16,145 bases of DNA from Temnopleurus reevesii (Eukaryota; Echinodermata; Echinoidea; Temnopleuroida; Temnopleuridae): positions 14,385 through 30,529 of the forward strand of contig BQKZ01006061.1 of NCBI GenBank assembly GCA_036244855.1. Reading direction: 5' to 3'. The position numbers and the translations under genes are program-made. The notes under the pieces are model-generated. The model did no database searches and was not told the DNA's origin. It was given only the letters and a program-made list of their open reading frames with translations. How positions within the stretch are numbered: the stretch's first letter is position 1; each line of letters starts with the position of its first letter. Of the stretch, positions 188-16,145 are shown piece by piece.

Positions 188-484
188 ATGGTATATGGGC
201 TCACAGACTGCGCTTGGAAGGAGCTTCAGATTGCTATATCCCAGCTTGATTTTCGGAGGTCAACAAGTCAATTACTTGCACTGGGATATCAGAGCTTTAT
301 ACGGAGCGTGATCTCGTCCTCTCCCGGAACTCTAGGCGATCATCATGGAGCGTCCCGCTGTCGTACCTGCTGGTACTGCAGAGAAGTCTATTTTCAGAAT
401 TTTACCGGATTTTCCAGCTGGTCCTCTCGATATATTCCGTCAAAAAGCATCTTTCGATTGGAAAAAGTTGAAAGTGGCCATTGA
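188..484 (+). promoter_or_regulatory. upstream ORF overlapping the ACOX3 start in another frame
   Basis: An ATG at 188 (C at -3, G at +4, a moderate context) opens a 98-codon frame that passes over the ACOX3 ATG in a different frame and ends at 484. Its product resembles nothing I know. If the leader includes this ATG, it could lower translation from 345. A shorter upstream ATG at 128 stops after five codons. Whether either lies in the mRNA depends on the unknown start site. Confidence 0.3.
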
Positions 485-509
485 GGGTCAAGATGCAATC
501 AAATTTCAG
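345..509 (+). CDS. ACOX3: ACOX3 exon 1 (residues 1-55), start codon
   Basis: Begins with ATG in a good initiation context (A at -3, G at +4). An in-frame TAG at 333-335, only 12 bases upstream, rules out an earlier start in this frame. The first 17 or so residues are not conserved. From [20 protein letters not shown] (20-39) it matches the ACOX3 N-terminus. Ends in CAG|gtaaat, phase 0. The exon lies in the acyl-CoA oxidase N-terminal alpha-helical domain. Confidence 0.92.
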
Positions 510-3500
510 GTAAATAATACAAAATATAAACATGATAAATTTTTTTTAGCAGTTTTGTTAAATTTTTGGTGTTTAGGTTAATGATTCTGTCCTTATCTCT
601 TTCTTTTTCTTTTGTAAATAAACATAATTATACACTGTAGCATGGATGTATTTTAAGATTTGTGGTACATTTATAATACACTATTGATATTTTTTCTGTC
701 ACTTAAGTATTGAAAACAAAATAGATTGGTATTTCATTGTGTACATATCAGTGACAAATTAAAATTTGTATGTGTTTTGCTGCAAATACAAAGGTACCGT
801 ATATTGGGGTTGGTTTGACAAGTGATGTAAACATTGACAATATGACTCTTTTTCTTCATTAATCAATTTTCATTTTATTTGCATAATTCGAATGCTCATT
901 AAATCTTAGACACTATCTGTGGGCACCCTACTTCAAGTTAACAACACTGAATAAACAAAGAAAAGAAGGAGAAGATGAAAGGGCCCGGGCAAGTGGTCTG
1001 CTCAGTGCTGTAAGAATTCTATTGACTTCAAGATGAAATTTACACAATGCAAAACTGAGGTTTCAGTATCTTTTTTTTTATTCCCACAGTACCAAGTATG
1101 GAAAACAATGGAGAAAGACCCTCTATTCCAGCACAGCCCGGAACCACTAACCACAGAAAAGGCACGGGAAATCACATATCGTCGAGTCAAACGCTTGGTG
1201 GAATATGGATTCCCACAATCCTTGTCGAGCCACGTCTCTGCAAATACATGGCTTCTTACGGCGCTGATCATGTACGACATGTCACTGTTTGCGAAGTTCA
1301 ACCTCAACAGAATTGTAAGTATTCAAGGGAGAAGTGATTTCTTAGTTTGCATGTTGGACTTTTTGTATCATATTGCATTGAAACAACTCTTTACATAACA
1401 CCGTAACACTTTAACATTCTTGTTTGGTTTGACGGAAGCAGCAAGCATTAATTGTCCAAGGGGAAGTGTGCCATAGGTCTCACAGTCAGCAGATATTAGA
1501 TCTTTTACAAAATATTGGGCAACATTTTCAATCATTAATCATTAATCAGAATAGGACATTCTCAATGTGTATATGGTTCTTGATTATTATTGAAGCTATA
1601 TGTAGATGTATTCTAAATCTTCTAGTTTGTGCTCTCAAGGGTGTTTGCTGATTTGCATCAGACATAAGATTATTCCAATTTAGATGTCTATCATCAGTGT
1701 AAAGTTCATTGATATACAGTATAATAAAATATTTGAAGACACCAAATTTTTTTAGCCTTTCTTGTACCGTACCATGATTGTTGATTTCTTGCAAAAGTAA
1801 TGATTTAAGTTTTTTTTAATAATTTTGTAATTTGATCATTCGTAATAAGTATGATTTAAAGCTAAATTGTAAAAAATATCTCAGCCCTTTAGAGGAGTGA
1901 GATAATTAGCAATTCAATGGCAATGACAGAGTCTACAATATGTGAATTTATTATAAATGAATAGATTGAAAACTATTTTGATGTGTGATTCATGACTTTC
2001 TGTGCGTATCATGAACAGATGTTTGGAGAGACCATTCGCAATACTGGTTCTGCTCGGCATGAAGGTTTAGCTCAGCAGTGCCAAATACTGGAGGTAAGTA
2101 ACACACCTCCCAGGTCCATAACACAAACTTTATGACAGATGATACAACCTATTTTGGTTAATAACAAATGTATTGTTCAAGATTCCCATTGCAACTGTAC
2201 TGCAATGAAAACATTTGAAAACTTCCAGCCTAAACACCACCCTGAGACTGCTCAAAAAGAATTTTTTCCATAACAGTTTCTTTATCAACAACACTGGCAT
2301 TTAGGAAAAATGCCTAGAGCATGAATAATTCCCACAAAATGCACCATAAAATTGTGATAGTTGGTAATAATGAGACTCTTCTGGAAAGAACCTAAGAACC
2401 TGCCCCTTAGACTAGGAACATACTTTATTCCTACTTCATGGAATAGACTAGTTTTTAATATCTAACGCATGATTCTTGAATGTGGGCATTTGTCTTGTCC
2501 AAAACACCAATAAATGTATGACAACTGGATTTCTGTAATAATCAATTGTTACTAGCAGTTTAATGTTAAAGGTAAAAGAAACGAAATTTTATGCTTAAAA
2601 AGATTAATTTTAAAGCAAACTGGCCAATTGATCATGACCATGGCCTTGACATTTATCCTAAGCCAACAAATATTAAAGAGTTTTATATCTCCATTTTGTT
2701 TCTTTCCTTCCAAGGCTTTCTGTAGCCTGATATTTGGAGTCAAATATTTGCCAAGAATCACAACTCCATTTGCTTAATCAACTTGCAAGGAATAGAGTCA
2801 ATATTTTATCTTCATTATGATCCCCCATCCAAGGCTGGAATCATAGTGTGTATATAATGTATGTTCACTATCCTGATATCTCCTTTTCTTGTTCACATTT
2901 TAAGGCAAAGGGTATAAAGGAGGTAATTTCTATATAGTGCGCAAATATTTTCTCCCTAAAGAAGCAGTTTATCCCCCCTCCCCCAAAATAGAACAATACA
3001 AATTTGTTTCCTCCCCATCTAAAGGCCTGGGCACACCAAACACGGCACGGCATCACGGCACGGTATTTACGCGATTTCTCCCCTGTGATTGGCCAATTGT
3101 GAGGCATCCTTTACGCGGAAGAGCGCGCTGACCAATAGCAAGGTAGCGCGTAAATACCGTGCCGTTATGCCGTGCCGTGTTTGGTGTACCCGGGCCTTAA
3201 GGCTTTCTAAACCCTGAGCCATTGTGTGGTATGTTGCATTCTTCATACATGATTCTCTGTTTTCGTACCCGCCTTCAGAGGGAATAGATATAAAGAACCT
3301 CATATCTACATGTACATAGGGCTCAGATTGTCTCTCCTTGAAGAAGTGCTATTCAACTCCCCCCCCCCCCCTCTACCCCCTAAAAACTACTATATCAAGT
3401 TGTTTCTCCCCTTCCAAGGCCTTTTACACCCTTAAACAATGTATAAAGTGTTGTAAAACCACATATCTCTTTTCTTGTATACCTTTATAGGGAATGGAGT

Positions 3501-6500
3501 CAATATGTACATCTATTTCCATCTTGATCCCCCGTCCAAGGCCTGAATCATTGTATGAAGTGTTTATAATCATCATATCTCCATTTTCTTATTCACCTTT
3601 CAAGGCAATGAGTGTAAAGGAGTCCATATCTCCATTTTTCTCCTTCCAAGGCTTTCTTAAGCCTGAACCAACTTACAAAGTGTTTGTAATCATCATATCT
3701 CCATTTTCTATGTTCACCTTTCAAGGCAATGGGGTGCTTTTCCCTGACAGAGCTATCTCACGGAACAAACACAAAGGCTATGCGTACAACTGCTATCTAT
3801 GACCCCAGTACAAAGGTAAGAAACTACTTGTACTCACTTGGAAATAAGACCACAAAGAAACTGGGCAAAGTAAACAACCCCCATTCAAGCCTATTCTTTC
3901 TCAGATAAAAGGAAAGATGCTTCTCTACCGTTCAGCAAATAAGGTCGACATCTGTTTTACAGACATTTTTTTCAGAATAGATGCGGAGGAGATTTTTTTG
4001 TGTGTGCTAGAACCATTGTAAGGGCTTGAGTGGGTAGTCGTTTATTTTGTCCAGTTTCTAAGTGCTTCGAATTCACAGAGCTATCTCACTGAACAAACAC
4101 AAAGGCTATGCGTACATTTGATATCTATGACCCAAATATAAAGGTAAGGAAGTTCTTACTAGGAAATCAACAGGCAAAGAAACTGGACAAATTGAACAAC
4201 ACCCATTCAAGTTTTCACAATGCCTCTTGCAACCTAAAGAAATGAACTTTCCTGTCATTCAGCAAACACATTTGACATCAGAAATTTCCATTGCAGGATA
4301 AATGCGGAGGCAATTTCTTTTTGTGTGCAAGAGCCATTGTAAGGGCTTGAGTCTGTAATCATTTATTTTGTCAAGTATCTTTTCCCCCCACAGAGATATC
4401 TCAAGTAACAATCATGAAGACTTTGCATAATTATCTATGACCCAAATACAATGGTAAAGAACTTCTCTCTAGGAATTTAAAAAGACAAAAAATTTAAATA
4501 ATAAACAACTGTACATTCAAGCTTTCATAATGGCTCTTCTGGAAAAAAAAAGGAAGGAGCTTCTTTTGCTGTGAGCAGAATGGACAAAATATTTTGGACA
4601 AAGTATTGCAGCCTTCACAATAGCCCCAAAACATAAAAGAAATTAGCTTCCTTCTCATTATGTGACTCATGTTTGATATTTTTTGGCTGAATGAGAGGGA
4701 AAGAAGTTTTTGTGTGTATCTAGCCATTGTGAACGCATGAATGAAGTGGTTTGCTTTGTCCAAATCTTTTGTCCCATCTACTCACAGTGGCTGCGATTCA
4801 GCCAACGCGTTTGACATATGTTCAACTTTCCTTTGCAGAACAACTGGGAAAGAAATGTCCTTTTGTGAACTTGAATCATTGTTTGGGCTGGAGTGGTAGT
4901 TGTTTATTTGTCCAGTTTCTTTGGTATTAGATTTCACAGTGACTATCTTCATGAGCCTGATAAGGGGCTCAATGTGTGTCAAAGCACTGATAAGGCACTC
5001 AAACTGTCAACAAGACAGAGATAGGGTGATTTGAGTGTTTCAGGCTTCATCAGTCTACGTGCAGAATTTCATCCTTCTTTTTATCTTTCCATTTTTGCCT
5101 TTTTAAATATTAATTAAACATGTATGTTTAGCCCGCAGTAAATTAGAATATGATCAAAGACCAATAAGAATGCCAGGACATGATTGAAAGCAAGTTAATT
5201 TGTTATATCATGAAATTAGGTTACATAATGTGTTCTTACTTGGATAACCTTGTATTACTTTCGTTCTACAGTTGCACATCCTTAGGCACCTGATTTAAAC
5301 AGTCTTTGATTACCTTGTAATTTTCGAACTTGAGAATACCAGGTTCCATATTTAAACACAAATATTTTTTGGTTTGTATTTCCATAATGTCTCAAAGTAA
5401 AGTTTGATGGATGAATGTACACATACATGGCACCCCTGAAGAAAGCACTCTATGAAAATATACATAGAAGATTTTCAAATTTTTTCAAATTTCAAAACAA
5501 TTAACTCTATATATCCGGGCGGTGTTTCACCAAGATAAGAAAGACTTTACGCACGACTTTACATTCGACTGGTATCCCTTCTTGCGCGTAATGGTTCACA
5601 CTATTACGCGCATTCAGGGCAAGATTTGACACCAGTCAAACTTCAAGTCGTTCTGAAAGTCTTTCTTATCTTGGTGAAACACCACCCAGATCTACATTGA
5701 ATGAGCTAAAATCCTTTTGTTGATTTTCAATGAAAGTGAGTTTCTACTATTCACTGTATGGTACTCTTTTTATCATTTTTTTTTTATAATGAGTCTTGCT
5801 TGGGAGATAGATGATTCTAATTTTTTCCATGTATATTAATAAAAAAAAATCATTTTGAAACATATTTTGGATGCAAGCTGTCTGTCGAAGTCAGCACCTA
5901 TCTTTCCAAAGAAAATTTCATAATGTTATCCTTCTCTATTGATAATTTGTAACAGTATTTTCATGACTGACATGCATTTGGTTGACATGTATTTCTATCA
6001 CTCTCGTAGCTGAATAAACACTAAATTTTCTTTTTAAAAAGTGATTTTTTTTCACCTTATATACATAAACCTATTTTCTCCATGCCTTCAGGAGTTCATC
6101 ATCAACACCCCTGACTTTGAGGCCACCAAGGTTTGGGTCGGCGTTCTCGGGAAGTCCGCTACGCACACCATCGCCTTCGCTCAGCTATACACGCCGGATG
6201 GCGAGTGTCATGGTCTGAATTCCTTTGTTGTACCGGTCAGAGATCCCAACACCTTGCTTCCCATGCCAGGGGTCCTGGTCGGTGACCTCGGGGTCAAGCT
6301 TGGCCAGAATGGGCTGGACAATGGGTGGGTATATTTGGTATTTCTGTGTTGGTTACCTGACTTGACGTTTTATTTTGGGGGGGGGGGGGGAGTTCTGGTC
6401 GGTGATCATGGGGTCAAACTTGGCCAGAATGGGCAGGACAATCGGTAGGTGTATTCATATTTTTGTGTTGATTACCTGACTGGATGGGTTTTTTTTTGGG

Positions 6501-9500
6501 GGGGGGGAAGTCCTGGTTGGTGATCTTAACGTCAAGCTTGGCCAGAATGGACTGGACAATGGGTAGGAATATTTGATATTTTGTGCTGATTACCTGACTG
6601 AGCTGGTTTCTTTTTTTCCCTTCTTTTTTTTTTTTTGGGGGGGGGGGAGGTGTCACGGTCTGACTTTGTTTATGGTACCGGTCAGAGATCCAAACACACT
6701 GCTTCCCATGCCAGGTGTCCTGGTTGGTGATCTCGGGGTCAAGCTTGGCCAGAATGGGCTGGACAATGGGTGGGTATATTTGATATTTTGTGTAGACTAC
6801 CTGAATTGGCGGAGGAGGGGGGATTGGGGGTGTCCTGGTCGGTGTCCTGAGCCCCGTAACATAAAGGTTTGCGATTAATCGCTATTTGATTTTACGATCA
6901 ATTGAAAACTTTAGTACATGATTTGCCATAGACCTGCGATTGATGGATTTTATAAATAAATAACAAACTGGCATTTGTATAATGCATAATCAGACGAACT
7001 GCTCTATGTACTTCACACTATTTTAGCGTCTTTGAAGCTCAAAGTCAGAAGTTACCATGTAAACAAATATGTCTTTAGCCTGCGCTTGAACACTTTAAGA
7101 GAGTTTGATGACTGAAGTTCATGTGATACGCCGCTCCATGTCTTCGGTGCACAGAAGTAAATATTTCATATTTTGTGTTGATTACCTCACTGTGGCCCGA
7201 GTTCTAAAGATAGATTGAATAAAACCACCTCCTCCCTTGACCATAGAAGACCCCCAAAAGCCTGACTTTTATTCACAGAATATTCTTATTTTGATATTTG
7301 CTCTCAAGTGGAATTCTATGGGATTGAATTCCCTGAAACCTTTCTTTTCTCTTTTACTAACACATATACATCTCTCTGATGATAAACAGGAACCACAAAA
7401 CTCTTGACTTTTGTTTTTTATACCATTAGTTCATACCCTAATTCACTAGAAGTGTCTGTGATATGTTTCAATTTACAGCTGTATCCTCTCTATATCAATT
7501 GCTTTCGAAGAATAATTCAATGAAGAAAATCAGAGTTTATATGTTGTTTTAAAGTAAAAACTATTTGGATCTGCTTTATCTTCATCGTTTGCTGAAGCTC
7601 TCCATAGAGGTCTATCCGTACATGGTGCATTGTCATAATTCATCAGCGACATGACGGTTGCTGATGAATTATCACTGTTAAATTGATTGTATTGCAAAAA
7701 ACCCATGACAAACAAACGTATAAAGCTCTGGGGATTCCTGTTTTAGAGAAATTTTGCCATATTGGCCATTGCTTTTAAACCATACTGATGTTGCAATGAT
7801 GTAACTGAAGACAAACAATAGATCACCTTCATTGCTAGATACTGGTGTAATAAATAAAGATGCAATTATTACATTCCAATATACATCTATATTCATATCA
7901 TCCTTTATGCTCCTCCAGATTTGTAGCATTCCACAATGTCCGCATTCCCAGAGAGAACCTTCTCAACCGACTTGGCGATGTGACGGTGGATGGAAAATAT
8001 ATCACTCCCATAGAGGTATGTGTGTCAGAATTTGACAGATTTGAAATCAGGTGTGCCGGTTCTAAACAAATTTAAATAAAAAGGAAATTGGAGATCTCAA
8101 TGGATCAACACATCTGCTCTCTTTCTCTCTACCTTTGATTAATGTTGGATATTATTCAAGGGAACGTTATTTGGTTCAGTTAAAAGTGTCCCGAATTCCT
8201 GGCCATAATCTTCCAAGATAAATGAAAATTCCGTTATGCAATACAACATATTGATATTGAGCATTCTACAATTTCTGGATTCCCAGAGAGAACCTTCTCA
8301 ACAAACTTAGTGATGTGACAGAGGATGGAAAATTTATCACTTTTATTGAGGTATGCTGGCGCTTATACCTGTAGGAAAGATTATAACTTTATTGTAGTGC
8401 AATACTCTCACTATTTTAGACATTCTTATCATACATACTTATCATTTAGACATACTTATCTTTTCATCCTTGTCAGGCCAGTGGACTAATTACAGATACA
8501 ATACAAAATACAAAATAAAAAATGTCAATACAAAATTGACACTTCCAACAGATATAGCATTCATTAATGAAATTATTTGGAAAATTATAATAGTCTTTTG
8601 TCACTTTAATTTGACTGTGCATTTAGATTATATACAGGAATAGAATTCTACTTGGAAATTGTATTAAAATCATATCGCTTACTGACCCCAATTCTGAATG
8701 AAATGATAGCATGCTGTATAAGCTGAAATTTGCACAGGAGTTTTATTTTCATGGATTTCACAACCATGAATTTGCTAGAATTTTCACTTTTTAGAATACC
8801 CAAAGACTTGTATACAAAAATCGTTCAAAAACGTGGAAATTACAACTTGATTATGTGTAAAAAAGGTCTGAGATTCAGTGAACTTGGTAAAATTAATTTA
8901 TGCTGAAATATTATCCCTGACAGTAATATTTAGGAGGCACATCTTCCTATTTTATTTAATTTATTCATCATTATTATTATTTTTGATGGAGGTTCTTTGT
9001 ACATACAGGTATGCATATATTTTTTTGCTAATTAAACTCAATAGGCGGGTTTACTTATATATTCAAATTTATGTGCGTTTTACGTAGTTACGTGGTATTC
9101 CATAGACCGGTTGATAACAATAAGACTACAATAATTGGAATCCAGTTTGCATACATTACTTGTTGCTATGTCGGGCAAGCCTTGGGCAAGCTTTCTGGTT
9201 GTCAAGAACAACCTTTGTGTTAGAGGTATGCATAAAATTTGCATCTTTTAGTAAACCCGCCTATTCATTTCCAATATTGCCGCAACAACAGGATCCAAAA
9301 GAGAGATTCGGTGCATCACTAGCAGCCCTGTCTGGTGGACGTGTTGGCATCACAGCTATCGGGGTCTGCAATCTGAGACTAGCAATCTCCATCGCTGTCA
9401 GATACTCGGCAGTTAGGAGACAGTTTGGACCAACGCCTGATGAGTTACCCGTACTGGAGTACCAGATGCAGGTATTATAAGCTTTTCTTTAACCTCTCTC

Positions 9501-12500
9501 TTCTATTTTTAGGTCAAGTAGTAAAAATTTTCAGGGTTTAAAAGCACTGAAAATTAATCTTCATTGCTATCAGATACTCTGCTGTCAACAGATAATTTTG
9601 ACCTACAGTGGTGGAGGAACTGCCTGTGCTGGAGTATCAAATACAGGTATTAAAGGCTTTACTTAACCATCTCCCTTAGGAATTTCCAGAATTCAAACAC
9701 ACACGTTCTCCAACAATAAAGACGAGCTGCCTGGACTTGAGTTTTAGCATGAAATGCATTATCCTTCTCCATTTTTAATATTCGTGATTTATCAGCGTTT
9801 ATAATTACCAAAGTAATACCAGCAATGGGAAGGGGAGCAATGAGGGGGGGGGGGGGCAGCAGTGGCACTAACAGATTGTCCTTCTCTAATGATTAACATA
9901 TATTATGGTGATATTAGTCTCATTCAATTTAGGAAAGACAAAAAAGAGCAAACTTTTGAAAAATACTTCATTCAAATCTTTTTATAATCCAAACTTTATG
10001 TGGGTATGATATATGTATTTATTCTTGTTTGATTGACATCTCTTCCACATATCATAATACTTGCAAATAAAAGAAACGTAGTTACACACACTTCTGTGTT
10101 TTCTTTTCTTAACTCCCTTGCATGTTTTTATTTTCAGCAATGGAGATTGATACCATATGTAGCTGCTGCGTTCGTCACCTTCAGATTATCAGAGAATATG
10201 TACAGACATTATGGGGAGCTGACACAAGCAGTTGCAACAGGAGATAAAAGTATCAATGCAGTAAGTACACATACACTACTGATTCAAAGTTTTGGTACTC
10301 TATGCATTTGACGTCACATGTTCGCTGACATTGAAACTGCATTTGTCACCTTCGGATTATAAGAGAACATGTACAGACACTATGGAGAGCTCACACAAGC
10401 AGTTGCAACAGGGGATAAAAGTATCAATGCAGTAAGTACACATACACTACTGATTCAAAGTTTTGGTATTTGATGCATTCGTTGTCTCTTGTTCTCTGAA
10501 AATTCGAAGCTGCGTTTGTCAACTTATTATCGGAGAACGTGTATAGGCAGTATGGGGAGCTAACACAAGCAGTTGCAACAGGGGATAAAAGTATCAATGC
10601 AGTAAGTACACATACACTACTGATTCAAAGTTTTGGTATTTGATGCATTCGTTGTCTCTTGTTCTCTGAAAATTCGAAGCTGCGTTTGTCAACTTATTAT
10701 AGGAGAACGTGTATAGACACTATGGCGAGCTGACACAGGCAGTTGCAACAGGGGATAAGAGTATCAATGCGGTAAGTACACATACACTACTGATTCAAAG
10801 TTTTGGTACTCAATAAATACAATTTCACACATTCTCTGACAAATAAGATGCATTCATAATTTTTAAAGAATATGTACCAACACAAATAAGTAGAGTTCAC
10901 ACATGCAGATGCAACAGGAGTATTAAGTCAGTAAGTACACATACATTATTAATTCAAAGTTTTGGTGCTTGCTGCATTTGTTGTCACATGTTCTCTAACA
11001 ATTTGAAGCTGCATTGGTCATCCTCAGACTATCAGAGAATATGTACAGACACTATGGCAAGCTAACACAAGCAGTTGCAACAGGGGATAAAAGTATCAAT
11101 GCAGTAAGTACACATACACTACTGATTCAAAGTTTTGATACTCAATTTATTCAATGTCATATGTACTCTGAAAATTCGAAGCTGCACATATCATCTTATC
11201 AGAGAAGATGTACAGACATTATGGGGAGCTGACACAAGCAGTTGCAACAGGAGATAAAAGTATCAATGGAGTAAATTACACATATACTACTAATTCAAAG
11301 TTTTGGTACTCTATACGTTTGACATCACATGTTCGCTGACAATATGGAGCTGCATTTGTGTTTCACCAAGACTGATAACAATTCTTTTGCTGAATGATTG
11401 ACAATCTTATGCATATTGGGAGTAAAAATGTAATCCAGTCTCTATTAAGTCGATCTTAACTATGAGAATGATCTGGTGAGACATCACCCAGGGTTGTGTT
11501 TGATAAAGATGTTCATAGAGGTACAAACGCTTGTGTGCATGACTGGTGATCGCTTTCTGCACTCAATGAAAAGGTAGCACCTGAAAAAGGATCATCAGTC
11601 GTGCGTCACTCTACGATCAGCTTTATGAAACACAACCCAGGGAAGTGTTTCACTAAGATAAGAAAGACTTTACGCACGAACTTACGTTCGACTGGTACCT
11701 CTTCTTGTGCGTAATGGTTCACATTATTACGCGCATCCAGGGCAAGAACTGATACCAGTCGAACGTAAAGACGTGCGTAACTTTAAGAACGACTTTATGA
11801 AACACAACCCAGGTATAATTTCATATTTTATATATTTTGTTCTTTTTTTTATGCCTCATGTAGCTGGAGTTAGGGAAGGAGATGCATGTGTTGTCCAGTG
11901 CATCCAAACCATTGTGTAGCTGGCTAGCTAGGGATTGTATACAGGAATGCAGAGAGGCATGTGGGGGACATGGCTACCTATGGGGTAAGTTAGAACTCTG
12001 TAATGAGGTATTTGTTTTTTTTGTGTTTTTTTTTGGGGGGGGCGCTATGGATGGTATTTTCTAATTGTGGGGTAAGTTAAACTGTTTGTTGTCCGGTGGT
12101 TTCATGCCTCAATGTAGCTGGTTAGCTAGGAATTGTATACAGGAATGCAGAGAGGTTTGTGGTGGACATGGCTACCTTGGGGTAAGTTTGACCTCTGTAA
12201 ATGAGATAATGTTGCTTTAAGGGAGAGGGAGGGTGGGGTCATAGGTAATTATTGTGTTAGTTGAACTGTTTTACTGAGAAGTAGTTGTTAACAGGTTAGC
12301 ATTTGTTTTTAGTGCTTCCAAACCCCTGTGTAGCTGGCTGGCTAGGGATTGTATACAGGAATGCAGAGAGGCTTGTGGTGGGGATTTGAGATATCATGAA
12401 TTAAACCAGGAAATTTCAACTCGCAAGTGTTGAATAATGTCTATCATTGGCATTTCTCTTTGTTCAAGCAGACCTACTAGTCATAGGCTATCTGCAATCT

Positions 12501-15448
12501 TTTTTTTTGCTTATTTCTTCTTCATATGCAGTGAACAGATTTGGCATGTTACGAGATGATAATGATCCTAACTGTACATACGAAGGTGATAACAACGTTC
12601 TCATGCAGCAGACCAGTAACTACCTACTTGCCATGGCACTAAGGCTACAGAAAGGTTAGTGAAACTACAAATAGTTCCCAACTGTCACACTAGCCACTCT
12701 CACCCAAGTGCTATTTGGGAAACAATGATAATTATCATAATAATTATGATACTTTGTAGTTTAATAATGATAGTGGTACTTGATTGAACAACCGTTATAT
12801 TTCTGGTTTAGCAATGCACGCCTCACAGTCGACAAGCTATGAATATGGTGACTGGGTAATATTAATATGAGCGCTTCAGTCAGTCACAATGGTTACTGGT
12901 AAAGCGTGATATAAGAACCCCATAATATAAACTTTTTGAAATCATTACTGATTATAGGCCTCAGATTCCAGGTTGCTTAAAATTTTTAGTGGAGTATAGT
13001 AGTTTCAGACAAAATAAAATAGTTTGGTTCAGTATAAATGTATATATGTCAAATTAGTGTCAATGTGTGAATGTTATTAAAAGAAGAATCTACCCCAAAA
13101 TGATAATTTCATAACAGAAGCAGAAAAAATTGGTGAGTAAAACAAACAAAAATTGAAGAAAATCGGACAAGTGATAAAAGAATTATGAAGTGTAAAATTA
13201 TTGAAAAAGTGGGCAAATCAATGAAAATTTCCAGAGTTGTTGCCAATTTGATGACATCATGGGTGCACAACTAACCAGAGTTTGCATTATAAATATGGTG
13301 CAAAATTCCTCATTTTTACAGAAAGTTACAAAGTTTGTATGAATGTAAACATACAAATAGTGGATCTACATATCTATCATAAAGATATCCTACCGTTAAA
13401 GTTTTGATGAAATCATATTTTTGGGGAAAAAAGTACCAGTTTATGACATTGATATGAATGTAATAAATGGTCAACTGTGCACCTATGATGTCGTCAGTTG
13501 TCAATTTGTCTAAATATATAAACATTCATAACTTTCTTAGTTGTCCAATTTTTCTCAGACTTTTTTGTTCTGTTCATCTGATTTTTATGCTTCTACTGAA
13601 GAAATATTATTTTAGGGTAGACTCTCCTTTTAAACTTCAGCAGAATCAATACTAATTCCTATATATTCATGTGCAGCTGTATCAATATTATATACATGTA
13701 TGTACATATTTCTATGTATTTTTTGTCCGCTGTGTACAAATTTCCAAATACATGTACAAGACCAATTTTAATCAAATCTGTTTTCTAATTTGATTCATAA
13801 AACATTCTTTTTCACTTCAGGCAAAAAGGTAACATCACCACTAGGTTCAATAAATTTCCTGAATTCAGCTGACATCATAGCTACGCAGAGGTTTACAGCT
13901 TCAACGTTTGAAGAGGTGACTGAACCAAAAGGTACTTCAGCCTATTTTTTTTGTTCTGTTCACAGTGGAAACTATATATAAAATTGTACATTTAGTTGTT
14001 GTTTGGGCTTATTCGTTATGAATGCGTTTAGGGTATGTCAAGTCTTTTCATTTGAATTTTTGGTTGGAGCAATTCCCTTCCATCCCAAATCGCCCAAATT
14101 TTCAGTTAAAATCATTTTTTCCACAATCAAGTAGCCCTTCTGAGCAATCTGAGGAAGACTGAATAATAATAATAATAGATGCAATTTATATAGCGCACGT
14201 ATCCACTCTGCTGAGTGCTCAAGGCGCTTTACATTATTATTACACTGGCTTTAGCCCAGCAGCCATTCACGGCGCACTTGGCATTTCAAAGAATAAATAT
14301 TCCTGCCAGGTACCCATTCACCTCACCTGGATTGAGTGCAGCACAATGTGGATGAATTTCTTGCTGAAGGAAATTGACGCCCTGGGTAGGATTCAAACCT
14401 ACGACCCTCTAGTTGAAAGGCGAGAGTCGCGACCACTACACCACGGCGCCTCCAAGGGGAAGGAAAGAATGATGAAGGGGAGAGTGCTAAGAGAAAGAGT
14501 TTGGTGGAAGATGAAATGAGGGGAGAAAAATGAATGGAATGAAAAAGGAGGCTAGGGGAGGAGCGAATAGGGGGTGTAGTCGTGAAGAGATATAGTACTT
14601 TAGAAAAAGAATGAGTATAAAGAAGATGATGTTGGCTGGGGAAAAGGAGAATTTGGATAAGAGGAGATGGAGGAAGATAGACGAAAAAGGAGGAGGTAGC
14701 TATTAAATCAATATAGAAGGAAGAAAGAGAGGTTCCAAATCTTCATTGTTCTCTACCAGAATTTACGATTCTGTTTAATATGCTAGCTATGATTCTTTCC
14801 CAGTTCTCCTTGATGCCTACCATTGGCTGGTGGTCCACCTCCTACATGTGAGTGGTAAGAAGTTCCAGGCACAACTCATGGATGGCAAGGACATGTTTAC
14901 AGCAAGGAATCAAACCCAGGTCTTCTTCTGTCGAACGTTATCCATTGCATTCATCGAGGTAAGCATCCTTTACTTCATTAGAATATTTGACTTGACATTC
15001 TTATTCAAAAGTTTTCTTTAGGCTAACAAGGTACTTGAGACCATCAAGAATACATTATTATAGCAGTAATCTTGTTATAGCAGGGAAAAAAAAGTTATAA
15101 AGAGCAAGTTCATGTATGTGCCCACCAATTATAGCTTCTTTAATAATTTCACATATAATTGCGAACTTTTTCCTATTCAATTCAACTGCTCCCCCTACTT
15201 GTCCTAGATGATACCACTTTTCTTGAAATTGTTTCCAATGAAAGAAAGTTGGAATAGAAGTAATTTTTCATGTTCCACACTCAGATATTTGCATTTGTTC
15301 TATCTTATCCAGTCGGTTGCTCTGGCGCAATTCATGGACTTCATTGAGTCCGGTAACTAGATCCCGGAGCAAACAGCTGTCCTGACTAAACTCTGTAGCC
15401 TGTATGGTCTTTGGAGTCTGGAGAAACATATGTCTACTCTCTATCAAG
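345..15448 (+). CDS. ACOX3: Peroxisomal acyl-CoA oxidase 3 (pristanoyl-CoA oxidase-like), 13 exons, 3' end outside window
   Basis: FAD-dependent oxidase of peroxisomal beta-oxidation. The family converts acyl-CoA (in ACOX3, 2-methyl-branched and long-chain forms) to trans-2-enoyl-CoA and passes electrons to O2, giving H2O2. Seen: spliced translation of about 611 codons from ATG 345 follows human ACOX3 as I recall it along its whole length, including N-terminal [12 protein letters not shown] (20-31), LTELSHGTN (162-170), [13 protein letters not shown] (240-252), [10 protein letters not shown] (254-263), RRQFGP (337-342), [11 protein letters not shown] (424-434) and CTYEGDNN (451-458). [10 protein letters not shown] is ACOX3-like rather than ACOX1-like. 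By family knowledge the Glu of YEGDN (E454) is the catalytic base, and the LTE.SHGTN and ACGGHGY segments line the flavin/acyl site. All 12 visible introns are GT-AG with matching phases. Oddities: an in-frame TAG in exon 13 (codon 582) and partial duplications of exons 4-9. Family length is about 700 residues, so roughly 90 and any PTS1 lie downstream. Confidence 0.93.
510..1089 (+). other. intron 1
   Basis: AT-rich intron with a GTAAAT donor and a T-run plus CCACAG acceptor. I see no repeat element, RNA gene or conserved block in it. Confidence 0.85.
1090..1314 (+). CDS. ACOX3: ACOX3 exon 2 (residues 56-130)
   Basis: Acceptor ttcccacag|TAC after a run of T; donor ATT|gtaagt. Exactly 75 codons, phase 0 at both ends. 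Encodes the N-terminal helical domain with [11 protein letters not shown] (62-72), matching the ACOX3 ENDPLF..SP stretch, and [10 protein letters not shown] (116-125), matching MYDSSLAAKY. Open reading continues upstream of the acceptor, but that part is intron because it is not family-like. Confidence 0.92.
1315..2018 (+). other. intron 2
   Basis: GTAAGT donor, AACAG acceptor. AT-rich filler with a short 'attaatcattaatca' repeat near 1535. Short ORFs on both strands have no family resemblance. Nothing else is seen. Confidence 0.83.
2019..2093 (+). CDS. ACOX3: ACOX3 exon 3 (residues 131-155)
   Basis: A short 25-codon exon, found by expecting the segment that follows LLHSL in ACOX3. Acceptor gaacag|ATG, donor GAG|gtaagt, phase 0. 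The product [17 protein letters not shown]... aligns with VFGSAVYSSGSERH, then QCQILE with the helix before the flavin-binding segment. Its acceptor lacks a strong pyrimidine tract. The size fits exactly between exons 2 and 4 with no residue left over. Confidence 0.88.
2690..3725 (+). repeat. diverged tandem units carrying copies of the exon 4 acceptor edge
   Basis: Related segments of about 100-120 bp recur up to exon 4. Each has a 'ccttccaaggctttcttaag' like block, then 'catatctccattttct' and a 'ttcacctttcaag|gcaatgg' like block that copies the true acceptor and first exon bases. Acceptor-edge copies start at 2904, 3281, 3491 and 3605, and the real one at 3726. The last three are 114 and 121 bases apart. 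Older copies are more diverged. A MITE interrupts one unit at 3023. The rest of intron 3 (2094-2690) shows nothing notable. Confidence 0.75.
3023..3197. mobile_element. palindromic MITE with TAA target duplication (PIF/Harbinger-like)
   Basis: The two ends are inverted repeats of about 50 bp that match at nearly every base (AGGCCTGGGCACACCAAACA at the left; its complement at the right, ending GGGCCT). TAA flanks it on both sides (3020-3022, 3198-3200), which fits the TWA target preference of PIF/Harbinger elements. No transposase is present. Removing one TAA and the element restores a block matching the neighbouring tandem units, which supports insertion. Confidence 0.85.
3726..3815 (+). CDS. 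ACOX3: ACOX3 exon 4 (residues 156-185), TELSHGTN flavin segment
   Basis: Acceptor acctttcaag|GCA, donor AAG|gtaaga, 30 codons, phase 0. Encodes [20 protein letters not shown] and an ATIYDPSTK-like end, matching [28 protein letters not shown]. By family knowledge the TE.SHGTN stretch (163-170) starts the beta-domain and contacts FAD. The acceptor edge is repeated several times upstream and the 3' two-thirds of the exon is repeated downstream (4076, 4392). Only this copy has both edges and an open frame. Confidence 0.92.
3816..4960 (+). repeat. tandem units of about 315 bp with degenerate exon 4 copies
   Basis: After exon 4 the sequence repeats the exon's 3' part plus intron. Pseudoexon copies end at donors at 4143 (GTAAGG) and 4453 (GTAAAG), 327 and 310 bases after the previous donor (3816 for the real exon). 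Each pseudoexon is preceded by a CACAG that could pass for an acceptor. The copies carry stops (for example TGA right after the CAC of copy 2). A third, very decayed intron unit runs to about 4960 and has only ACAGTG-like remnants of the exon (4785, 4937). Confidence 0.82.
3854..4061. mobile_element. inverted-repeat element inside the exon 4 duplication unit
   Basis: The left arm 'aaagaaactgggcaaagtaa' is matched in reverse by 'tttattttgtccagtttcta' at 4041-4060. The arms extend through 'acaacccccattcaagcc' and 'gggcttgagtgggtagtcgt'. The middle does not pair, and no protein is encoded. Copies recur near 4174-4378 and 4484-4770, with a single arm near 4900, because the element was carried along when the exon 4 region duplicated. 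No target duplication can be assigned. Confidence 0.7.
4961..5516 (+). other. intron 4, plain stretch
   Basis: AT-rich sequence with no recognisable element. The small direct repeat 'tgataaggggctcaa' / 'tgataaggcactcaa' at 4959 and 4989 belongs to the edge of the preceding units. Confidence 0.75.
5517..5687. mobile_element. palindromic MITE, family shared with 11637-11813
   Basis: The left end 'gggcggtgtttcaccaagat' pairs with the right end 'atcttggtgaaacaccaccc'. Pairing continues through 'aagaaagactt' and the inner 'actggt'/'accagt' arms, with central 'attacgcgca'. A second copy at 11637-11813 shares the order of blocks, including 'gataagaaagactttacgca' and 'gcgtaatggttcaca'. No clear target duplication and no coding capacity. 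Confidence 0.82.
5688..6091 (+). other. intron 4, stretch before exon 5
   Basis: AT-rich with short T and A runs. No repeat family or conserved block is seen apart from the exon 5 pyrimidine tract and acceptor. Confidence 0.75.
6092..6324 (+). CDS. ACOX3: ACOX3 exon 5 (residues 186-262 plus two bases), beta-domain
   Basis: Acceptor tgccttcag|GAG after a pyrimidine-rich stretch. The donor is taken as GG|gtgggt because only this keeps the frame into exon 6 (GG+A gives Gly263). 77 codons, ends in phase 2. Encodes [16 protein letters not shown] (187-202), [13 protein letters not shown] (205-217) and [13 protein letters not shown]...KLGQNGLDN. This is the middle beta-barrel domain, which in the family binds acyl-CoA and the flavin. 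GC content is visibly higher than in the flanking introns. Four partial copies of its 3' end follow. Confidence 0.94.
6391..6606 (+). pseudogene. two partial copies of exon 5 3' end with intron 5 start
   Basis: Copy a (from 6391) and copy b (from about 6509) repeat the last 60 or so bases of exon 5, its donor region and about 60 bases of intron ('gttggttacctgact'). Copy a reads [17 protein letters not shown] and then meets a stop in the donor. Copy b reads [18 protein letters not shown]. Both start straight after a T(n)G(n) tract. Joined to exon 5 through their AG, both shift frame and soon stop. Confidence 0.85.
6650..6769 (+). pseudogene. open, phase-symmetric partial copy of exon 5 (possible cassette exon)
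   Basis: 120 bases that repeat exon 5 from Cys224 to the GG before the donor. 36 of 39 codons give the same residue as exon 5; the differences lie in GLTLFMVPV against GLNSFVVPV. It keeps the same GG|gtgggt donor. A 30-base pyrimidine stretch (6607-6636), eleven G and an AG (6648-6649) precede it. Spliced after exon 5 it would enter and leave in phase 2, adding 40 residues in frame. It may be unused: the G run and loss of the real exon edge argue against it, and the insert would repeat part of the beta-domain. Confidence 0.8.
6770..6855 (+). repeat. intron copy and a fourth short exon 5 fragment
   Basis: After the open copy the intron start is repeated ('gtgggtatatttgatatttt', 'ctacctgaattgg'), followed by a G-rich stretch and 'ggtgtcctggtcggtgtcct', a stub of the same exon (VLVGVL). 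The duplication series ends here. Confidence 0.75.
6856..7918 (+). other. intron 5, remainder
   Basis: No gene. 6950-7165 has the look of an old decayed interspersed repeat with moderate GC ('tagcctgcgcttgaacactt'), but I cannot name it. A strong hairpin lies at 7635-7672. The fragment 'atttcatattttgtgttgattacct' near 7162 again resembles the start of intron 5, a further trace of the duplications. ORFs on the minus strand at 7530-7929 show no family resemblance. Confidence 0.6.
7635..7672. repeat. short perfect hairpin
   Basis: ATAATTCATCAGC and its exact complement GCTGATGAATTAT are separated by 12 bases, which themselves partly pair (GAC / GTT). It is intronic, 250 bases before exon 6. It could be the centre of an old foldback element. 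Confidence 0.7.
7919..8015 (+). CDS. ACOX3: ACOX3 exon 6 (residues 263-295)
   Basis: Acceptor gctcctccag|A, donor GAG|gtatgt. The first base completes Gly263, then 32 codons, ending in phase 0. [20 protein letters not shown] (264-283) matches the ACOX3 [20 protein letters not shown] stretch that links the beta-domain to the C-terminal helical domain. A degraded second copy sits 246 bases further on (8261-8350). Confidence 0.93.
8261..8350 (+). pseudogene. partial copy of exon 6 with donor
   Basis: 30 codons stay open and follow exon 6 in order: [20 protein letters not shown], then [10 protein letters not shown], with a GAG|gtatgc donor. The acceptor is gone: the bases before GCA are ttga where exon 6 has ttgta, with no pyrimidine tract or CAG. 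The only AG there would splice out of frame. It is probably a dead duplicate, although the reading frame is intact over the copied part. Confidence 0.85.
8351..9040 (+). other. intron 6, plain stretch
   Basis: AT-rich. A short repeated motif 'catacttatcatttaga' / 'catacttatctttt' occurs near 8433-8462 and 'atacaaaat' repeats near 8500-8530. No element or conserved block is recognised. The small ORF from 8878 is low-complexity and not protein-like. Confidence 0.7.
9041..9264. mobile_element. 224-bp element with perfect 15-bp terminal inverted repeats next to exon 7
   Basis: ATAGGCGGGTTTACT at 9041-9055 is exactly complementary to AGTAAACCCGCCTAT at 9250-9264. TCA flanks both ends (9038-9040, 9265-9267), which fits a 3-bp target duplication. 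The interior has no coding capacity and is not palindromic overall. The right end is 27 bases before exon 7, so the element supplies the sequence where the branch point should lie. The superfamily is not identified. Confidence 0.68.
9292..9471 (+). CDS. ACOX3: ACOX3 exon 7 (residues 296-355)
   Basis: Acceptor cgcaacaacag|GAT, which has a poor pyrimidine tract; donor CAG|gtatta. Exactly 60 codons, phase 0. Encodes [18 protein letters not shown] (299-316), then [20 protein letters not shown] (333-352). In the family the RRQFGP turn lies at the dimer/FAD interface. The acceptor region is bounded on its left by the terminal repeat of a 224-bp inverted-repeat element. Confidence 0.94.
9561..9690 (+). 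pseudogene. partial, broken copy of exon 7 3' end with donor
   Basis: 'tcattgctatcagatactct' to 'ctggagtatcaaatacag|gtatta' repeats the last 85 or so bases of exon 7 and about 35 bases of intron ('aggctttacttaacc'). The RRQFGP region is damaged, with TAA and frame changes. [10 protein letters not shown] can still be read just before the donor. A dead duplicate. Confidence 0.82.
9691..10137 (+). other. intron 7, remainder
   Basis: A G12 run at 9845-9856 and AT-rich sequence leading into the strong 'ttttattttcag' acceptor of exon 8. No other element is seen. Confidence 0.75.
10138..10260 (+). CDS. ACOX3: ACOX3 exon 8 (residues 356-396)
   Basis: Acceptor tttattttcag|CAA, donor GCA|gtaagt, 41 codons, phase 0. 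[10 protein letters not shown] (356-365) matches [26 protein letters not shown] aligns with VELQRGLASGDRSA. This is the only one of seven copies that contains the QWRLIPY segment and a real acceptor, so it is taken as the functional exon. Confidence 0.93.
10261..11359 (+). repeat. tandem array of exon 8 3' part plus donor plus intron, about 170-bp period
   Basis: Six further copies of exon 8 from GCTGC onward, with donor and intron start ('acacatacactactgattc'), end at 10431, 10601, 10771, 10930, 11103 and 11270; the spacings from 10260 are 171, 170, 170, 159, 173 and 167. A seventh start (11348) is cut short by a MITE. All lack QWRLIPY and the real acceptor. Copies at 10509, 11008 and 11181 are open and read [15 protein letters not shown] or close; those at 10335 and 10679 have one stop, and 10846 is badly decayed. 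Five of six keep GTAAGT; the last has GTAAAT. Copies 3 and 4 are almost identical, so some events are recent. Confidence 0.92.
11353..11490. mobile_element. possible degraded inverted-repeat element
   Basis: 'gtgtttcaccaagactg' at its left and 'tctggtgagacatcaccc' at its right pair imperfectly, in the style of the GTGTTTCACC family found at 5517. It interrupts the last exon 8 copy and directly abuts the next element. Confidence 0.45.
11487..11642. mobile_element. palindromic MITE sharing its right end with the next MITE
   Basis: 'cccagggttgtgttt' at 11487 pairs with 'aaacacaacccaggg' ending at 11642, with more distal pairing ('gataaagatgttcatagag' side against 'ctctacgatcagctttatg'). The last bases, CCCAGGG, are also the first of the MITE at 11637, so the two sit head to tail. 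No coding capacity. Confidence 0.7.
11637..11813. mobile_element. palindromic MITE, second copy of the 5517-5687 family
   Basis: The outer ends 'cccagggaagtgtttcac' and 'tgaaacacaacccagg' pair. Inner arms 'acgttcgactggtac' and 'taccagtcgaacgta' pair perfectly. It shares 'gataagaaagactttacgca' and 'gcgtaatggttcaca' with the 5517 copy. It ends about 50 bases before exon 9. Confidence 0.85.
11864..11984 (+). CDS. ACOX3: ACOX3 exon 9 (residues 397-436 plus one base), ACGGHGY motif
   Basis: Acceptor atgcctcatgtag|CTG after a T-rich tract; donor TGG G|gtaagt. 40 codons, ending in phase 1. Encodes [20 protein letters not shown] (397-416) and [16 protein letters not shown] (421-436), matching [20 protein letters not shown] and [14 protein letters not shown]. 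The CGGHGY segment contacts the flavin in acyl-CoA oxidases. Two defective copies follow at 12104 and 12308. Confidence 0.94.
12017..12190 (+). pseudogene. defective exon 9 copy with internal deletion
   Basis: A T/G tract (12011-12042) and a scrap of intron 9 start ('ggggtaagttaaactg') lead into 'catgcctcaatgtagctggt', which copies the exon 9 acceptor but then jumps straight to 'tagctagg'. In exon 9 the word TGTAGCTGG occurs both at the acceptor and about 50 bases inside, so the copy fits a deletion between these repeats. It then reads [15 protein letters not shown], lacks one base before the donor GTAAGT, and so is out of phase. Confidence 0.83.
12308..12390 (+). pseudogene. second defective exon 9 copy, donor lost
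   Basis: Reads [20 protein letters not shown] and then CGG, but the HGYL end and donor are replaced by unrelated sequence. Preceded by 'tttgtttttag', an AG that would not give the right phase after exon 8. A dead fragment of the same tandem series. Confidence 0.83.
12532..12654 (+). CDS. ACOX3: ACOX3 exon 10 (residues 437-477), catalytic glutamate YEGDN
   Basis: Acceptor ttcatatgcag|TG after a T run; donor AAA G|gttagt. The first two bases complete Val437 (G+TG) and the last base starts Gly478. [20 protein letters not shown] (438-457) is nearly identical to human ACOX3. By homology with ACOX1, Glu454 (codon 12582-12584) is the general base that removes the alpha-proton. QQTSNYLL (462-469) follows. 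No duplicate of this exon is seen. Confidence 0.95.
12655..13076 (+). other. intron 10, first part
   Basis: AT-rich. A self-complementary 'gataattatcataataattatgat' run at 12726-12751. No recognisable gene or element otherwise. Confidence 0.7.
13081..13629. mobile_element. 549-bp foldback element flanked by TTAA
   Basis: The left end AAGAAGAATCTACCCCAAAA pairs with the right end TATTTTAGGGTAGACTCTCC. Pairing continues with gaps for over 180 bases: 'gaagcagaaaaaat' with 'atttttatgcttc', 'aaatcggacaa' with 'ttgtccaattt', and 'gatgacatcatgggtgcaca' with 'tgtgcacctatgatgtcgtc'. TTAA stands at both ends (13077-13080, 13630-13633), as in piggyBac-type target duplications, though the ends do not begin with the usual CCC. 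No transposase is encoded; the ORFs inside are palindrome shadows. Confidence 0.8.
13821..13931 (+). CDS. ACOX3: ACOX3 exon 11 (residues 478-514)
   Basis: Acceptor tttttcacttcag|GC, donor AAA G|gtactt. Phase 1 in and out. [11 protein letters not shown] (483-493) aligns with the human SPLKSVDFLDA segment at the start of the second C-terminal helical region. The middle of the exon is only weakly conserved. It follows closely on a T-rich stretch and lies about 190 bases after a large foldback element. Confidence 0.88.
13932..14162 (+). other. intron 11, first part
   Basis: Unremarkable AT-rich intron between the GTACTT donor and the SINE. Confidence 0.7.
14163..14454 (-). mobile_element. tRNA-derived SINE
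   Basis: Read on the minus strand it starts GGAGGCGCCGTGGTGTAGTG, an A-box-like start, and has the B box GGTTTGAATCC about 55 bases on; together these form a decayed tRNA-like head (about 14377-14454). The body ends with AAAGCGCCTTGAGCAC and GCGCTATATAAATTGCATC, a tail shared with L2-like LINEs, followed by a TTA repeat (plus-strand ATAATA at 14163-14177). No clean target duplication was made out. It fits a SINE of a marine invertebrate. Confidence 0.85.
14455..14735 (+). repeat. purine-rich tract
   Basis: About 280 bases that are overwhelmingly A and G on the plus strand ('gaaggggagagtgctaagag', 'gatggaggaagatagacg'), abutting the SINE and ending 70 bases before exon 12. No exact repeat unit. 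Such tracts can form triplex DNA or act as purine splicing enhancers, but that is inference. Confidence 0.75.
14804..14958 (+). CDS. ACOX3: ACOX3 exon 12 (residues 515-566)
   Basis: Acceptor attctttcccag|TT, donor GAG|gtaagc. TT completes Val515, then 51 codons, ending in phase 0. [12 protein letters not shown] (517-528) matches the LAAYKWLVCYLL helix, [20 protein letters not shown] (545-564) matches the EARNKCQVSHGRPLALAF stretch, and IE follows. The exon sits just after a roughly 280-bp purine-rich tract. Confidence 0.91.
14959..15312 (+). other. intron 12
   Basis: AT-rich intron with a short direct repeat 'ttatagcag' (15058, 15074). No gene or mobile element is recognised. Confidence 0.75.
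15313..15448 (+). CDS. ACOX3: ACOX3 exon 13 with in-frame TAG (codon 582)
   Basis: Acceptor tatcttatccag|TCG, donor CAA G|gtaaaa. Read in the phase left by exon 12 it gives [15 protein letters not shown], a TAG stop (15358-15360), then [20 protein letters not shown] and EKHMSTLYQ. The part after the stop is clearly family sequence (human RAVLGRLSALYALWSLSRH), and both sides lie in one frame. The stop falls where the human protein has a loop, HQPSVPPS. It could be a nonsense allele, a sequencing error or a sign of decay. Two further AG sites (15359-15360, 15368-15369) could act as in-frame acceptors that skip the stop. Confidence 0.82.
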
Positions 15449-15654: not shown

Positions 15655-15840
15655 TGCCTCCGCCACCGTAAGGTGGTGCCGGAGGCATTATGTTTTCGGG
15701 TTGTCCGTGCGTCCGTGCGTCCGTCCGTCTGTCCGTGTGTCCGTCCGTGCGTCCGTGCGTCCGTCCGGACCTTGTTACCGCGATAATTTCAGAAACGCTG
15801 GACGGATTTTGACTAAACTTGGATCAAGTATGTATAACCA
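15655..15840 (+). mobile_element. interspersed repeat: GGAGGCA hairpin plus CCGT-rich array
   Basis: TGCCTCCGCCACC and GGTGGTGCCGGAGGCA form a hairpin (15655-15687). A CCGTGCGTCCGT / CCGTCCGT array (15705-15766) and a unit 'cttgttaccgcgataatttc' through 'acggattttgactaaact' follow. A related unit reappears at 16098-16145 ('gcttgttaccgcaataagtt', 'cagattttgacgaaa'). This hairpin-plus-CCGT design is common in marine invertebrate genomes to my knowledge; I cannot give a family name. Confidence 0.75.
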
Positions 15841-16061: not shown

Positions 16062-16145
16062 CATGACCAAAAAACTTGTAAAAAATCACCAAAAATAGCT
16101 TGTTACCGCAATAAGTTCAGAACTCCTGTACAGATTTTGACGAAA

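Follow-up and report, generated by a model that had tools for sequence, protein, structure and literature searches.

Partial copies accompany six consecutive exons of ACOX3

Why would six consecutive exons of a single metabolic gene each be followed by partial copies of themselves? This question is raised by a stretch of 16,145 nucleotides from the sea urchin Temnopleurus reevesii (GCA_036244855.1, contig BQKZ01006061.1, positions 14,385 to 30,529; hereafter the window), whose gene is ACOX3 (peroxisomal acyl-CoA oxidase 3, with Pfam ACOX domains present) and in which exons 4-9 show this arrangement. The answer that we favor, and hold to be rather probable, is recurrent local tandem duplication in an unstable stretch, with arrays that grew through unequal exchange and passed a filter imposed by splicing.

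Self-comparison of the window and alignments both located direct partial copies 3' of each of exons 4-9, as an initial annotation of this sequence had proposed, and a GT is kept at the donor position in 14 of these copies. The arrays are the following:

4075-4948, + strand: exon 4 copies; the first two start at 4075 and at 4379/4389, with donors after 4143 and 4453, respectively
~4791-4938, + strand: third exon 4 unit, exon part lost, with a short stub to 4948
6389-7192, + strand: exon 5 copies; copy 1 at 6389 (donor after 6444), copy 2 at 6510 (donor after 6562), copy 3 at 6644 (donor after 6769)
~6828-6844, + strand: exon 5 stub, no donor; intronic relic at 7160-7192
8253-8355, + strand: exon 6 copy; near-whole exon, donor after 8350, 5 intron bases
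9556-9677, + strand: exon 7 copy with two stops in frame; its donor follows 9646
10337-11359, + strand: exon 8 array; copies starting at 10337, 10509, 10679, ~10850, 11008 and ~11181
10431, 10601, 10771, 10930, 11103 and 11270, + strand: last bases before the donors of these six exon 8 copies; stub of a seventh copy at ~11349-11359
12087-12381, + strand: exon 9 copies; copy 1 at 12087-12218 (donor after 12181), copy 2 at 12299-12381 without a donor

The copy numbers first annotated were confirmed for exon 4 (two), exon 6 (one), exon 7 (one) and exon 8 (six), but the fourth exon 5 copy and the second exon 9 copy have no donor, the latter stopping short of it. Apart from the exon 6 copy, which ~230 unmatched bases separate from its parent, the repeats are direct, head-to-tail and cross the exon-intron border. 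According to local alignments, the copies start at exon nucleotides 22 and 12 (exon 4), 178, 181 and 109 (exon 5), 3 (exon 6), 93 (exon 7), 29, 28, 28, 43, 28 and 39 (exon 8) and 26 and 21 (exon 9), these starts being soft: for exon 6, alternative alignments match 7918 or 7925.

To evaluate each exon separately, its flanks (up to 1500 bases, beginning 26 bases from the exon) were compared with 60 dinucleotide shuffles per flank. All six downstream flanks of exons 4-9 scored above every shuffle, and none of the remaining seven (exons 1-3 and 10-13) contained a copy scoring above its shuffles, which agrees with the annotated absence of copies at these exons. Among the 12 upstream flanks, that of exon 4 scored 49 as compared to a null maximum of 30, and that of exon 2 exceeded its shuffle maximum by a single point (25 versus 24, for a 15-base match). 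A scan of the whole window (DUST on, 100 block shuffles), limited to copies separated by less than 1300 bases, then yielded seven arrays of direct repeats that surpass the highest shuffle score, 34.6 bits; the top score per array is lowest at exon 7 (66) and highest at exon 8 (909), and all seven touch exon borders. Outside these arrays, the same score was passed by only two direct repeats within that distance, at 11597/11769 (45 bases) and 15771/16099 (47 bases), a tally that leaves aside a few repeats at 30-33 bits, below the best shuffle.

The identity between the exon-derived part of a copy and its parent exon ranges from 0.73 (exon 7) to 0.94 (exon 8 copy 6), which supports the proposal that the same kind of duplication occurred at neighboring exons at differing ages. 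A Glu codon is missing from exon 7 (9292-9471) and kept in its copy (9556-9646) as well as in three other urchin proteins, so that the exon 7 copy probably predates this loss, as judged from the sequences compared.

Sea urchins are highly heterozygous, and arrays of this kind could be an assembly artefact in which haplotypes or reads from related loci were strung together; the premature stop in exon 13 (described below) and the long C/G runs could also hint at a rough assembly. Considering that the exon-derived parts differ from their parents by 6-27%, often with insertions or deletions, across seven separate arrays, we find such an artefact very unlikely. It is easier to imagine that partial tandem copies of exon ends are usual in the genes of this urchin and that ACOX3 is merely the visible case: nothing within the gene sets it apart, and the available portion of a study of sea-urchin SpTransformer loci describes local repeat instability there (PMC5103432). 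Still, exons 1-3 and 10-13 lack downstream copies, and six consecutive exons out of 13 have P = 0.005 by order alone, leaving a genome-wide habit as a serious but somewhat doubtful explanation.

Each founding unit carries one type of splice site

Our favored explanation, duplication filtered by splicing, bears on which copied splice signals were kept. The initial annotation held that the copies begin inside their exon and carry a donor without a true 3' splice site. This stands for exons 5 and 8; the exon 6 copy, however, spans a near-whole exon, even if the acceptor is missing there too, along with a few exon bases at most. In none of the six donor-carrying founding units is the acceptor of the parent exon included (joint P = 0.04 for the given lengths of exons and units; 0.09 when units are allowed to land on any exon), and units of 328 and 336 bases at exons of 90-97 bases could easily have included it. 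Acceptor-like AGs scoring at least 5 were found within 60 bases of the start of 5/15 copies (33%) as compared to 29% of 97 control intron windows, showing no enrichment under an acceptor model built on 12 sites of the ACOX3 gene, parent site included, in which real sites score -3.4 to 10.2. Upstream of exon 9 copy 1, the sequence resembles the true acceptor and may hold a real one; the alignment would account for this resemblance as changed exon sequence.

The arrays together span 2685-12381 rather than the 3726-12390 initially annotated, where an array upstream of exon 4 had been overlooked:

2685-3735, + strand: intron-3 array; six diverged units of ~100-115 bases, the last one entering exon 4
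3631-3733, 3520-3612, 3403-3497, 3199-3285, 2817-2912 and 2700-2796, + strand: intron-3 units located with nhmmer

These units copy the 3' splice site of exon 4 together with the first ~10 exon bases. Acceptor copies were found in 4/5 of the units that precede the last one (at 2904, 3278, 3490 and 3604), with scores of 7.3-11.1 as compared to 10.7 for the real exon 4 site under a model that contains their parents, and further AGs within the units (2714, 3418 and 3650) score 5.7-10.1. With this acceptor array upstream and its donor array downstream, exon 4 is therefore flanked by arrays of both its splice sites. The tolerance for extra donors that had been suggested must then be reworded: since exon 4 also has extra acceptors upstream, what seems to be tolerated is one half of the signals of an exon. 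At 3019-3201, a hairpin element separates units of the intron-3 array.

No copy was found to have both an acceptor and a donor of its own, as in tandem exon duplication or mutually exclusive exons, and no duplicate provides both GT and AG, as in intron gain: founding units are donor-only at exons 4-9 and acceptor-only in intron 3. In-frame exonisation was examined by eye and rejected for an exon 8 copy, in which use of the AG that precedes CTGC would break the frame set by exon 7 and lead into a stop, and likewise for the first exon 4 copy, also out of frame with a stop.

The copied sites might instead be splicing decoys that slow or regulate the removal of introns 3-9. Decoy exons are tied to intron retention in the literature, as far as the available excerpts go, and here all 14 donor-reaching copies keep their GT, with scores of 3.3-11.6 as compared to -0.6 to 12.3 for real donors left out in turn, in addition to the four well-scoring acceptor copies of intron 3. 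However, if ~9% is taken as the change at each first or second position of a codon, retention of 14/14 GTs has P ~0.07 under neutrality according to a rough hand estimate, which is near the neutral expectation and leaves selection for kept donors unsupported, and the sites vary in place and number from exon to exon. We thus see a decoy function as very improbable.

Exon 8 units are mosaics and three families show a third-position excess

Copies 1 and 2 of exon 8 are alike at 77/77 trailing intron bases, yet differ at 11/93 exon bases (P = 0.001), and copies 2 and 3 have in common the 40 bases that precede them. Exon 8 units are therefore mosaics, and the mosaicism of copies 1 and 2 matches what unequal exchange between units predicts. 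Within copies 1-3 (10337-10842), several third-position differences fall within ~18 bases, and longer flanks are identical or near-identical between neighbors.

Variable columns were then counted by codon position in MAFFT alignments of each exon with its copies. For first, second and third positions, these counts were 12/8/19 of 32 each in the exon 8 family, 5/8/15 of 41/42/41 for exon 5 and 6/4/15 of 29/29/30 for exon 7, so that third positions make up 19/39, 15/28 and 15/25 of the variable columns, respectively. No third-position excess was detected among the variable columns of exon 4 (3/18), exon 6 (5/17) or exon 9 (10/23). Against simulated decay of copies beside a selected exon, the third-position share gave P = 0.036 (exon 5), 0.016 (exon 7), 0.012 (exon 8), 0.99 (exon 4), 0.87 (exon 6) and 0.31 (exon 9), and P = 0.009 for the six families combined (0.007 with stronger selection). 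When copies 1, 2, 3 and 5 of exon 8 were compared without exon 8 itself, 6/2/12 columns varied, a third-position share that was reached by 0/148 plain-decay runs and by at most 3.5% of the 106-147 exchange runs of a crude model. Simple exchange with one exon was rejected as the cause of the excess, which this small simulation, run at assumed rates, failed to generate. Adding exon 8 to the same four copies, third positions vary at 13/32 sites and the first 37 intron bases at 1/37, in a stretch that was picked after looking.

These observations could indicate that the copies at exons 5, 7 and 8 diverged under coding constraint, either because units came from several functional alleles or paralogues through unequal recombination, or because the copies once were, or still are, exon ends. 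A derivation of the units from several functional exon versions would match the third-position pattern, for which we have no good explanation otherwise, and copies 2 and 5 of exon 8 and copies 1 and 2 of exon 5 are open in the native frame. By contrast, no excess is seen in the exon 4, 6 and 9 families, the exon 7 copy contains two stops and exon 8 copies 1 and 3 contain one each, and exon 8 and exon 5 copies lack both a good acceptor (under the small model) and the first part of the exon. On these grounds, we regard coding constraint as an unlikely origin of the pattern. A more far-reaching version, in which the copies at exons 5, 7 and 8 would not be simply dead and would have diverged as coding sequence, as a reservoir swapped with the working exon or as exon ends from several functional gene versions, with the 3' half exchanged in cassettes along the intron, appears quite improbable to us.

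A proposed model of local duplication filtered by splicing

In the mutational mechanism that we infer, ~10 kb (kilobases) of the ACOX3 gene would undergo repeated tandem duplication, giving units of ~115-340 bases whose breakpoints may lie at short matches or homopolymer runs: the exon 4 units begin at ACAG, and exon 5 copies 1-3 are preceded by G runs. Arrays would then lengthen and be shuffled via unequal exchange among units, and the instability of this stretch would account for the clustering. A unit with the donor half of an exon, or with the acceptor half in intron 3, would escape exon definition and persist, because splicing would not define it as an exon; a unit comprising a whole exon and its two sites would be spliced into the mRNA and then eliminated. 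The 0/6 acceptor pattern fits such a filter, and the model is further supported by the position of all seven arrays at exon borders, by the differing ages of the copies, by the mosaic exon 8 copies, by the lack of a third-position excess in exon 4, 6 and 9 copies and by the lack of acceleration in the exon parts that have copies (see below).

Several points weigh against this model. A filter by splicing leaves unexplained that wholly intronic duplications are nearly absent (the two short cases mentioned above), and a further cause is therefore needed. Indeed, at least six donor-only units out of nine exceed what random placement gives (P ~0.0001; 0.0015 if border units are detectable twice as long and 0.008 if four times as long). 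Masking of exon-derived sequence removed the arrays of exons 6, 7 and 9 but left those of exons 4, 5 and 8, the intron-3 array and both remaining repeats, with 3/6 donor-only units remaining in this set (P = 0.018). The third-position excess at exons 5, 7 and 8 also surpasses simulated decay, and exchange simulated at one locus rarely reaches the exon 8 value; the exon 6 copy departs from the head-to-tail arrangement; and the breakpoint matches are visible at the present units only. Finally, the units, thresholds and placement tests were all set up after the data had been seen.

Comparison with known systems

Tandem repetition that can span exon-intron borders has been described in human genes of segmental duplications, where internal tandem repeats at such boundaries were proposed to arise by slippage or unequal crossover (PMC2812944, available portion). 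In that account, the units have a mean length of 30 bases and change exons or give rise to introns, whereas the ACOX3 units have 115-340 bases, concern six successive exons, are intronic and carry one site type. Tandem duplication was also put forward as a source of introns in ATP2A1 and a potato RdRp gene (PMC4974935, in the text at hand); there, as here, splice signals are copied along with exon sequence, but the mRNA gains a new exon or a new intron from the duplicate, whereas each founding duplicate of ACOX3 has one site type only. As in tandem exon duplication with mutually exclusive exons, the copies of one exon adjoin in a row; unlike such exons, the ACOX3 copies lack an acceptor and, exon 6 aside, a sizeable first part of the exon, and several have stops or frameshifts. 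The SpTransformer (Sp185/333) loci, likewise from an urchin, combine repeats with locally unstable DNA, but, from what the accessible text reports, involve whole clustered immune genes and several repeat types (PMC5103432) rather than a single metabolic gene with intronic arrays. Among the top-ranked titles of the open-access literature, no pattern such as that of ACOX3 was found. What differs from these known systems is the repetition at six neighboring exons, the one-sided splice signals and the intronic location.

If such arrays are general, they would offer a direct view of splicing filtering new duplications, in which exon halves survive and whole exons do not, and would allow the rate to be estimated at which exon-border tandem duplications feed new exons and introns. 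If they are special to ACOX3, they would mark a conserved metabolic gene as the site of a local duplication hotspot, with the third-position pattern calling for a process of exchange between exon and copies.

The ACOX3 gene and other features of the window

The gene has the following structure:

345-15448, + strand: ACOX3, 13 exons, GT-AG borders, consistent phases
345-509, 1090-1314, 2019-2093, 3726-3815, 6092-6324, 7919-8015 and 9292-9471, + strand: exons 1-7
10138-10260, 11864-11984, 12532-12654, 13821-13931, 14804-14958 and 15313-15448, + strand: exons 8-13
15358-15360, + strand: in-frame TAG in exon 13, at a position that is Leu in Strongylocentrotus purpuratus and Lytechinus variegatus

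Up to the exon 13 stop, the predicted protein is 83% identical to ACOX3 of S. purpuratus, 81% to that of L. variegatus and 73-74% to that of Diadema antillarum, so that, judged by protein identity, Strongylocentrotus and Lytechinus are the nearer relatives and Diadema the more distant one. Its nearest protein relatives are ACOX3 proteins, but the nearest solved structure is an ACOX1. The C-terminal part is absent from exons 1-13, and further exons sought in the window were not found. The TAG interrupts the frame to the C-terminus in an otherwise intact-looking gene, and may be an error, an allele or a sign of a dying gene.

A comparison of 579 residues showed 21 that occur in this lineage alone, as against 9 for S. 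purpuratus (P = 0.04) and 15 for L. variegatus (P = 0.41). Faster protein change in repeated exon parts was considered and rejected, with 2/191 lineage-unique residues in the exon parts that have copies and 19/388 elsewhere; the exons are not visibly damaged by their copies. Exons 11-12 contain 8 residues unique to this lineage and 1 each in the two relatives.

Seven runs of at least 8 G or C bases were found (1-21, 3359-3371, 6377-6390, 6498-6507, 6637-6647, 9844-9856 and 12035-12042), of which all except 1-21 and 9844-9856 lie inside arrays (5/7); such runs are possible stalling sites. Hairpin or inverted-repeat elements, which are probably miniature transposons, were seen at 3019-3201, 5510-5694, 11645-11780, 9040-9265 and 13077-13633, those at 5522-5651 and 11645-11774 being 88% alike. 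Near the end of the window, a short tandem array of GTCCGTGC-like units (15703-15767) is followed by a segment (15771-15817) that is repeated at 16099-16145.

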